Positions 3,769-60,009 of a stretch of 64,000 nt of DNA are shown here, one piece after another (position 1 is the first letter of the stretch; the number at the start of each line of letters is the position of its first letter). The position numbers and the translations under genes are program-made. Below the pieces are notes generated by a model, which saw only the letters and a list, made by a program, of their open reading frames with translations, had not been told where the DNA came from and made no database searches. This DNA is from Candidatus Bathyarchaeota archaeon. GTDB lineage: Archaea; Thermoproteota; Bathyarchaeia; Bathyarchaeales; Bathycorpusculaceae. The stretch is from positions 62,001-126,000 of the forward strand of contig JAOZHW010000007.1 of NCBI GenBank assembly GCA_026014685.1, in the 5' to 3' direction.

Positions 3769-5864
3769 TTTGATGAGGTATTACCATAGACCGCCATTTT
3801 ATCGTGATCACCATAATATATGGGACTCCCTGCCCAAACAGATGTAAAACCTGTGTGTAGCTTAGTGCCCCCAAAGCCAGCTATATTTGGATAACATGAT
3901 TGTGATGCATCATCCAGAGCGTCTTTTATCGTCAGATCAAAGTTTAATGAAGAATTAAAGAATTCCCAAATCCAATCGTAATACTTAATGCTAGGAATGG
4001 CAGGATCTATAGCTTGTACAAGTGAGGCGGATCCTGCAGAAAAACCGATATAACAAAAAGAGCTAGAGGTATCTGGAGTTTCATAGCCAGTTGTATCTAA
4101 GTTAGCAACATGTGTAAAAGCATAGGGCATTCCAATAGGCTTCGCATTACGTGGGTCATTCCCGTAATATCCGTTGCCTAATAGACCATCACCATCTGGA
4201 TCTGCTGGCCAATGAGATAGCCAGTTTAAGTCTATTTTTGCTGACAGACATGTGTTAATTAGCGCAAATTTAGTTCTGCCCTGAGTCTTTTCAGATATTT
4301 CGTAATCGTATATTTTATCGTTATTACTGTCACAAAGCATAAAATGCCATTCATTTGGATGATCTGGGAAATTCAATCCCTCGCCTATGCCATGGTCAAA
4401 CCAGACAGTCGCATGTCGATAACTCAGATCTTCATCAAAAGCGATTCTATTAAGAAAGTAATTTTTGTTGCTTGAGGGACCTTGAAGGTCGAGTGATGTA
4501 TAACCATTAGCGTCAAACCTGCCCTTAATAATGCCGCAAATTAAATCTTGGTGTTCAAGCTCTCCTGACGTTTTGTAGGGAGCTAAAGAACCCCATGTTG
4601 TAGCACGCCCCTTATACATGGAAGCATCAGTTGGTGAGACTGAACTTGCGACAATAAAAAAGAACATTAAAAAACAAATGAACAGCGCAAAGATTTTATA
4701 CGAACGCTTATTTGATAAGAAGTAAAGCTCTTTGGTGCGCAAAAACAGAAGTATACCCGCCACACCAAAAAGAAACATTATCGGAAACAAAAGAAATGCA
4801 GCAGTTGACAACGGGGAACTGGACTGTGATTCTTCGATTGCGCTTTCTTCGATTGATGCGACTTCATGTGGCGCACCTAGCGTAGAAAAGAACTCTGGGT
4901 CTAATGTAGTAAATACTTCTTCAATATCCCTAACCTGTTTAGTATCTGCCCAGATATCGACGTAAATTCCATAAACGTTTCCAGGATAAAACTTGTCTAA
5001 ATTTATTCCAATACGCCACATTGGGAAAAGCATCAGGGTATCTGTGGTACGCGGATTATCAGCATTGTGTGAATTGCAAAAAATCAACTGCTTAACTGCA
5101 ACGTCTGTAAGATTAAAATTGTTGATTTCAATCTTTGTTGTATTATCAATGTTTACTTCCCATGAATACTTTTCAGCATTCTCATAAGCTATTTCTACAG
5201 CTTCCTCTTCAGACAGGTTTATGTCTGTACTGCCTATGTTATACAAATTCCAAGTGTCAATGAAATATTTTAGGAAGCCATTTTCATAACTTATAATTAC
5301 GCATTTTGATGAAGCGTTAATGCCGTTATAGGTGTATGACCAAGTGAAGCCTTTAATGGTCTCTGAATCAGTGACTTCGAGCTTTGTTGACCCTGAAGTT
5401 ATTGTCGAGTTCTTGAGCGTATCGACTTTCTCTAGCATTGACCTTAGTTCACCATATAAAGTATTGCCTGAGTATTGCTGGTAGGTTGTAAGGAAATCTT
5501 TAGTCGCCTCAAGCAGATTATCGATAGATTTGGTCATTATTGGTATCCCCTCTTTTTCGAGAACATGAAGGATTACTAATTGATCATTTGTAAATGTACA
5601 GAGAAACTTCAGGTTGCTTGTACTAGAATTAAAAGTGTATTGAACTTTTTCTTCAGGAATAACACCTAAAAACGAATCCTGTCTCTCTGTTGAAGTAATT
5701 CTATACTTTTCAAGATTAAGACCCAACACATCAACTAAGATGGAGAGACCTTTTTGTGTTGCACTAATTTCTGTTGCTTGTGCTTTAGGAGTCGTGTACA
5801 AGTAAATGCTAGAAAACATCAAGAAAACAATAATTGAGGATAGGAATAGCTTTTGTTTACCCAT
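3750..5864 (-). CDS. Secreted/membrane protein with clan-CD (caspase/gingipain-like) peptidase-like domain
   Basis: 704 residues. A signal peptide covers 1-30. Residues ~31-330 resemble a PepSY-like or DUF-type secreted region (EEEAVEIAYENAEKYSW). Two hydrophobic stretches follow near 350-410 (FLLFPIMFLFGVAGILLFL and IFALFICFLMFFFIVASS). The last 300 residues hold a His-Gly motif (VWFDHGIGEG) and, about 55 residues later, a hydrophobic strand ending in Cys (FALINTCLSA). That spacing and context fit the His/Cys dyad of clan-CD cysteine peptidases. This is pattern-based inference; no family was confirmed. The ORF ends NCTSQH, and a beta-rich domain continues in another frame. Confidence 0.65.
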   Translation of the reverse strand: MGKQKLFLSSIIVFLMFSSIYLYTTPKAQATEISATQKGLSILVDVLGLNLEKYRITSTERQDSFLGVIPEEKVQYTFNSSTSNLKFLCTFTNDQLVILHVLEKEGIPIMTKSIDNLLEATKDFLTTYQQYSGNTLYGELRSMLEKVDTLKNSTITSGSTKLEVTDSETIKGFTWSYTYNGINASSKCVIISYENGFLKYFIDTWNLYNIGSTDINLSEEEAVEIAYENAEKYSWEVNIDNTTKIEINNFNLTDVAVKQLIFCNSHNADNPRTTDTLMLFPMWRIGINLDKFYPGNVYGIYVDIWADTKQVRDIEEVFTTLDPEFFSTLGAPHEVASIEESAIEESQSSSPLSTAAFLLFPIMFLFGVAGILLFLRTKELYFLSNKRSYKIFALFICFLMFFFIVASSVSPTDASMYKGRATTWGSLAPYKTSGELEHQDLICGIIKGRFDANGYTSLDLQGPSSNKNYFLNRIAFDEDLSYRHATVWFDHGIGEGLNFPDHPNEWHFMLCDSNNDKIYDYEISEKTQGRTKFALINTCLSAKIDLNWLSHWPADPDGDGLLGNGYYGNDPRNAKPIGMPYAFTHVANLDTTGYETPDTSSSFCYIGFSAGSASLVQAIDPAIPSIKYYDWIWEFFNSSLNFDLTIKDALDDASQSCYPNIAGFGGTKLHTGFTSVWAGSPIYYGDHDKMAVYGNTSSNCTSQH

Positions 5865-9180: not shown

Positions 9181-9352
9181 GAGAACTTTTAATCAAATTA
9201 CACTTCGACGTCGGTGTATGATTGTGGCAGACTCAGCTGCGGACAATGCTATTAGGGCACAACAACTATAGAAAAAGCAAGACTGCCTAAAGCGCAAAAA
9301 AGTTAAATGCACAAAGCCAATTCCCTATTAACCAGTTGTGGAGGATTCTGTT

Positions 9353-27863: not shown

Positions 27864-27907
27864 TTCTTTATATAAGGGAGGGGAGGTACACTTTGAGACG
27901 TCGCGTG
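27864..27907 (+). repeat. Copy 1 of a 44-base perfect repeat (promoter-like)
   Basis: Identical over 44 bases to 35391-35434 (-) and 59966-60009 (-). Parts in order: TTCTTTATATAA (TATA-like), GGGAGGGGAGG, then TACACTTTGAGACGTCGC and GTG. The TTG inside has a GGAGGT five bases ahead. The rest of the interval 27668-27993 shows no other clear gene. Similarity to copy 3 continues for about 57 bases with a conserved small hairpin (27924-27937). Confidence 0.9.
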
Positions 27908-27993
27908 ATTCCAGCTGGTGCGGATACGGAACCGTATGCCCCCTAAACTGTGAGTTCATAGAAAAAATTGCTTCGCACTTCTCTCAATTAGTT

Positions 27994-35390: not shown

Positions 35391-35434
35391 CACGCGACGT
35401 CTCAAAGTGTACCTCCCCTCCCTTATATAAAGAA
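35391..35434 (-). repeat. Copy 2 of the 44-base perfect repeat
   Basis: Reverse orientation, immediately past the acyl-CoA ligase stop, so the TATA-like part points leftward into the antisense of that gene. Similarity to the other copies continues only about 16 bases further and then stops. Confidence 0.9.
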
Positions 35435-59824: not shown

Positions 59825-59965
59825 TCTAAATATTGAGCAGAAATCACTTTTCCTTTTTTTGAGCTTTAAATGGTCAGATAGGTTAGGAGAACACGACTGT
59901 GGCCTCTTTCTATAGCCGCACTTATTTTGGGGTGCATACGTTTCCGTATCCGTACTTGCTGGAGT

Positions 59966-60009
59966 CACGCGACGTCTCAAAGTGTACCTCCCCTCCCTTA
60001 TATAAAGAA
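59966..60009 (-). repeat. Copy 3 of the 44-base perfect repeat
   Basis: Reverse orientation, upstream of the small membrane gene at 59824. After the 44 bases it stays similar to copy 1 for about 57 bases, including the hairpin ATACG-GAAA-CGTAT (59936-59949, here on the reverse strand), where copy 1 has ATACG-GAAC-CGTAT. Confidence 0.9.

Follow-up and report, generated by a model that had tools for sequence, protein, structure and literature searches.

The 44-base sequence TTCTTTATATAAGGGAGGGGAGGTACACTTTGAGACGTCGCGTG, which occurs three times in the window (the whole stretch of 64,000 nucleotides analyzed here), is the conserved left end of a far larger repeat family with 77–83 copies in the 2.3-Mb genome. 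We consider it probable, with some reserve, that these copies represent a dispersed, non-autonomous family of intergenic repeats with a built-in box A, spread or homogenized at the DNA level and associated with recombination. This reading builds directly on the copy number, the intergenic and orientation-free placement, the modular build, the restriction to few species, and the maintained TATA-to-GAGA distance, as well as on the turnover of an inner 7-mer within a conserved core and on the association with synteny breaks. The family would thus consist of short interspersed, non-autonomous intergenic repeats of one Bathyarchaeia clade; non-coding transcription would begin from the box A of each copy, at the GAGA motif or close to it, the copies may have been dispersed and homogenized by copying or by gene conversion between them, and they may serve as, or mark, places of chromosome rearrangement. 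We infer both the transcription from box A and the copying mechanism.

In archaea, few descriptions exist of short interspersed repeats, which have been examined closely in some bacteria. The family reported here strictly keeps only a perfect TATA box with a spaced start-like motif, and its copies coincide with rearrangement points. It would therefore be a tangible example of how repeats that carry promoters shape the chromosome of an archaeon, and it offers a ready marker in uncultured Bathyarchaeia, both for transcription and for genome plasticity.

Three identical copies in the window

Exact copies of the 44-mer are located at 27864–27907 (+), 35391–35434 (−), and 59966–60009 (−). No further match with up to three mismatches was found beyond these three, and 100 dinucleotide shuffles yielded 0 matches (chance expectation 0), which bears out the preliminary description of three identical copies. 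Comparison of the flanks also agreed with its statements that the upstream sequences diverge at once and that copies 1 and 3 are alike downstream; their similarity continues through a hairpin, GGATACG-GAAC/GAAA-CGTATGC, which is absent in copy 2.

Copy 1 comprises an exact archaeal box A, TTTATATA (27867–27874), a G-rich block, GGGAGGGGAGGT (27876–27887), in which GGGAGGGG is invariant in 75 of 76 genome copies, a variable 7-base spacer, ACACTTT (27888–27894), and a conserved right block, GAGACGTCGCGTG (27895–27907), whose GAGA is the putative start region, situated mostly 19–20 nt from box A across species. It is followed by the hairpin module GCGGATACG-GAAC-CGTATGC (27920–27939), all on the forward strand. 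The box A sequences of copies 2 and 3 lie on the reverse strand at 35424–35431 and 59999–60006, respectively, and the hairpin of copy 3 (ATACG-GAAA-CGTAT) at 59936–59949 (−). The shared ACACTTT spacer of the three window copies is a coincidence; this segment varies genome-wide.

Copy 1 has an SHMT-like gene on one side and a phosphoribosyltransferase gene on the other. Copy 2 lies between a cupin gene and a convergent AMP-binding enzyme gene (acyl-CoA synthetase type), whose stop codon is 7 bp away from the right end of the copy, and copy 3 is flanked by two genes on its own strand. The window also contains, at 9250–9295 (+), a solitary relic of the downstream module (TATTAGGGCACAACAACTATAGAAAAAGC) with no core attached.

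A genome-wide family with a fixed core

When the middle was left open, the core pattern TTTAWATAAGGGAGGGG-N11-GAGANGTSGCGTG was found in 77 copies, 51 of them without a mismatch at the fixed positions, and a slightly looser pattern recovered 83; the reversed control pattern gave 0 matches in the same genome. The possibility that only three copies exist, entertained in the preliminary description, is thereby discarded. Its caveat that the copies might be assembly duplications is ruled out as well: the flanks differ, most large contigs carry copies (about one core per 29 kb), and the separately assembled genome of a sister species contains 60–64 copies.

The core, which can also be written CTTTAWATAAGGGAGGGG-AGGT-N7-GAGANGTSGCGTG, has the consensus C-TTTAWATAA-GGGAGGGG-AGGT-N7-GAGANGTSGCGTG-RTT in 76 copies. 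Box A and GGGAGGGG are practically invariant, the W of TTTAWATA being the sole free box A position, and CCTC replaces AGGT in 8 copies. The middle 7-mer occurs in 36 forms, among which AGACGCT (10 copies) and CAGCTTT (9 copies) recur. In the extra regions analyzed, core matches fell into two classes, with 0–2 and with 7 or more mismatches, and a tail of degraded copies was missing there; a few copies with 3 mismatches were found in the sister species. Purely neutral sequence would not be preserved to this degree, so that selection or very active homogenization is implied. In one area of the sister genome (L154/L175, around G018:C20:24305), two cores stand back to back with one common TATA box (GACCTCCCCTCCC-TTATATAA-GGGGAGGGGAGGTC).

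Box A, spacing, and placement among genes

The TATA block and GAGA are 19 nt apart in nearly all copies, and 18–20 nt apart with few exceptions, namely the sister-species copy at the position of window copy 2, in which the G-tract is shortened, and short copies in two further species of the genus (G012 and G009). The distance is kept by compensating lengths of the G-tract and spacer (12+7, 13+6, and 10+9), which would be expected under a box A-to-start rule and is indirect evidence for one. The earlier remark that a transcript from this TATA box would begin past GGAGGT is consistent with the exact box A and with the 19–20 nt to GAGA that persist across these length changes. In the family consensus, no BRE-like purine block precedes box A, the upstream positions being T/C-rich and ending in C, and the region behind box A is G+C-rich; both would be unfavorable to a strong archaeal promoter. 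The impression from the window that perfect box A sequences are avoided elsewhere in the genome was refuted in 412 kb, where 26 occur outside the elements against 30 expected.

Among 90 copies, the neighboring genes are arranged as ++ in 24, +− in 23, −− in 22, and −+ in 18, and a same-strand downstream gene is present in only about half of the copies. A gene 3′ end is found no more than 30 bp from the right end in 15 of 47 cases, a gene 5′ end in only 2 of 42, and several copies run to within 3–20 bp of a convergent gene. This is the placement of a repeat avoiding genes and gene starts, not of a promoter for particular genes. With regard to the promoter or leader module considered in the preliminary description, box A and its spacing thus fit, but a dedicated mRNA promoter does not, as flanking genes occur about equally in all four arrangements; because the core copies are intergenic in every orientation, they are not a promoter for one gene set. 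The proposed ribosome-binding site GGAGGT followed by TTG fails: TTG is found in a minority of copies, the seven positions ahead of GAGA vary, and indels break the downstream frames. A conserved translation start was accordingly rejected.

Downstream modules and RNA structure

The core alone measures about 45 nt, and full-length copies reach about 280 nt, the downstream modules often accompanying the core. About half of the copies continue to GGATACG-nnnn-CGTATGC, others to a TGAAYT..GGTTCA-type module and then CCTTTAAATAAGGGG.CTATAGAAAAAATCGCA, and some extend, at about 280 nt in total, to a 3′ module ending in GTTGTTGTTGTGTATAGGGG...CAACAACAACTATAGAAAAA, which is also found alone. The hairpin stem is nearly invariant, with no clear compensatory changes. 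Folding stability from GAGA onwards showed no excess over shuffled sequences (mean z −0.56 and −0.02; upstream control −0.26), RNAalifold returned no structure on a gappy alignment, and the Rfam 15 covariance models gave no match at the copies in nine loci. Pairing of the 7-mer, either palindromic or in RNA, was dismissed, a single symmetric position pair being clear. About 40 bp upstream of one core copy and on the opposite strand, a sub-threshold match to DUF3800-X RNA was noted (L112, 3651–3759 (−); 36.8 bits, gathering threshold 38.2, E 0.00045).

Distribution in related genomes

Of the 257 genomes scanned in the class, only two contain the full core frequently, the genome under study and that of the sister species Ca. 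Bathyarchaeota archaeon FK_Sedi_B_Bin.165 (G018), to which the 60–64 full-core copies belong; G012 has one. A looser pattern (TATA, GGGAGG, a gap of 6–14, and GAGA), scanned in 163 genomes of the order, was found 79 times in this genome, 31 times in G018, 13 times in G012, 5 times in G009, and once each in G124 and G150, which represent two other genera. Most relatives within the genus have no copy, and in G009 and G012 the sequence after GAGA is quite different (e.g., GAGACGGGTAGGTCT). No core copy was found in IMG/VR viral contigs, and the 221-bp stretch around copy 1 had no match in phage and plasmid collections; an origin from a virus or plasmid was rejected on these grounds.

Several related sequences were observed elsewhere. 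In G029 (L252) and G013 (L251), the site corresponding to window copy 2, directly behind the AMP-binding enzyme gene, is occupied by GAGGTAGGTTGATAGACCTCGCGTG and GAGCCGCGTGTTTCC, respectively; these begin just past the stop codon, have no TATA or G-tract, and are likely remnants or relatives of the right arm. In G150 (L284), a second, tandem TATAAATAGAGGGGGGTAGGTC-TGTGCA-GAGAG is located about 95 nt past the core, which suggests greater age and diversity of the family in other genera. The sister species also has a diverged core of a second type, CTTTTTATAAGGGGAAGGGG-CTCTCGGCAGAG-CAACAAACG (L232, approximately 2050–2200 (−); G018:C23), and similar cores stand alone in L171, L202, L207, and L218.

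Evolution between species and association with synteny breaks

Of the G018 elements, 21 can be paired through a flank with the corresponding side of an element in the present genome, and only 4 of these match on both sides. Identity of the fixed core reaches 93% in 24 flank-matched cross-species pairs, whose 7-mers agree at 2.5 of 7 positions, compared with 2.9 in random cross-species pairs; the 7-mer differs at 3 of 4 collinear sites. Species-typical forms also exist, with GAGAC here and GAGAG in G018. Since the core is this well kept while 7-mer agreement does not exceed that of random pairs, the core appears to be maintained, by concerted evolution or by strong selection on it, while the inner spacer is exchanged or drifts. 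A hypermutable 7-mer is probably an unneeded assumption: divergence of intergenic DNA between the two species is nearly saturated, and turnover with homogenization explains the pattern.

Non-operon gaps with an element were broken in 24 cases and conserved in 2, compared with 19 broken and 25 conserved among gaps without an element (Fisher p = 3e-5), an association rather than causal proof, drawn only from stretches fetched around elements and thus open to sampling bias. In three loci aligned base by base with G018, the break is at or near the core: in two of them, 14-kb and 12-kb stretches of ordinary genes on one side are present only in G018, and in the third an inversion ends in CTTTATATAAGG. 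The partner breakpoints in the sister genome mostly have no core copy, and one has a diverged relative. Moreover, one sister-species copy has the upstream flank of one element on one side and, on the other, the downstream flank of a second element, which is inverted and 11.5 kb distant from the first; an inversion would produce such a junction.

Contig C20 (L090; 5340 bp) carries a 153-nt inverted repeat at 1–153 and 5188–5340, 99% identical, with one core copy per arm; it resembles an invertible segment, or an assembly break brought about by its inverted repeat. Its genes are ordinary, with open reading frames resembling, by eye, Orc/Cdc6, endonuclease, and methyltransferase proteins.

Alternative explanations

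The copies might instead be multi-copy small non-coding RNA genes with a TATA promoter, a GAGA start, and hairpin modules, selected at each site for their RNA. The exact box A, its kept distance to GAGA, and the hairpin retained in about half of the copies agree with this. Where flanks match between species, moreover, alignable sequence begins again a median of 27 nt downstream of the core but a median of 190 nt upstream of it, though only at p = 0.06. However, the other half of the copies have no hairpin, several would run into a convergent gene within 3–20 bp, the zone in which DNA must melt is G+C-rich, and neither the folding analysis, the stem substitutions, nor Rfam points to a structured RNA; we therefore regard RNA genes as unlikely. 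The copies could also be binding sites of a chromosomal protein acting in the nucleoid, segregation, or regulation, each held by selection. A strongly conserved 42-bp core with a free 7-bp gap, found on most large contigs at a density of about one per 29 kb, would suit such a role, but conservation of the right half breaks down already within the genus, most relatives in the genus have no copy, and downstream modules often travel with the core, which leaves this explanation very improbable.

Site-specific recombination would account for a variable 7-base middle between two fixed arms, TTTAWATAAGGGAGGGGAGGT (left) and GAGANGTSGCGTG (right), if a recombinase bound the arms and used the 7-mer as the overlap, shuffling segments between inverted or direct copies; the synteny breaks at elements and the inversion-like exchange of flanks over 11.5 kb are in line with it. 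Yet the arms are unrelated in sequence and are not inverted repeats of each other, the dyad likeness consisting mainly of one symmetric spacer position pair, and the arm-to-arm distance equally fits that from box A to the start. In addition, the partner breakpoints are mostly without a core, the right arms are completely different in other species, no recombinase was identified, and the 7-mer is different at three of four collinear sites as well. We consider this explanation quite unlikely. Its farther-reaching form, a dedicated recombination system of the clade that would cut in the spacer, reshuffle gene order through about 80 sites per chromosome, and possibly switch box A promoters at the junctions, has in our view little chance of being correct. 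The preliminary description had named a mobile or terminal repeat among its options, beside a promoter/leader module and the start of a short RNA, and the repeat is supported by the many copies, their intergenic and orientation-independent location, their modular build, and their occurrence in few species. The dispersed, box A-bearing repeat family is thus the reading we retain.

Comparison with known systems

A limited literature search found no description of this repeat family. Compared with archaeal TATA (box A) promoters, the family shares TTTAWATA followed by GAGA at a start-like spacing of 19–20 nt, but it differs in having no BRE-like block, in the G-rich GGGAGGGG directly behind the box, and in the absence of a downstream gene in fixed orientation.

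The system of REP sequences and BIMEs with RAYT (TnpA_REP) transposases (PMC3733652, PMC2817692) resembles the present family in that its elements are short, high-copy, and intergenic, often lie near gene 3′ ends, form species-restricted families, and have a mosaic build. In contrast, the core described here is longer and non-palindromic and bears a box A; the 20–40 bp palindrome with a GTAG or CGTC tag that defines the REP/RAYT unit was not found, the hairpin being optional and outside the core. The REP/RAYT system as known is excluded, because no match to the Y1 transposase (PF01797; RAYT/IS200-type) was found in this genome (G000, 99% complete), G018, or G012.

MITEs of bacteria and archaea (reviewed in PMC10969869) may differ from the family at its ends: in place of clean terminal inverted repeats, a weak likeness was seen by eye between TTTTTCTTTATA (left) and the reverse complement of TATAGAAAAA (right), with a right end that is not sharply defined, and no target duplication could be discerned, as the intergenic DNA of relatives does not align. 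In addition, no parent transposon was found, and one end alone is strongly conserved. The family nevertheless shares with MITEs a multi-copy, dispersed, intergenic, and non-coding character, its 77–83 copies occupying gaps in all orientations, and it is likewise non-autonomous, hundreds of bases long or less, and probably spread at the DNA level.
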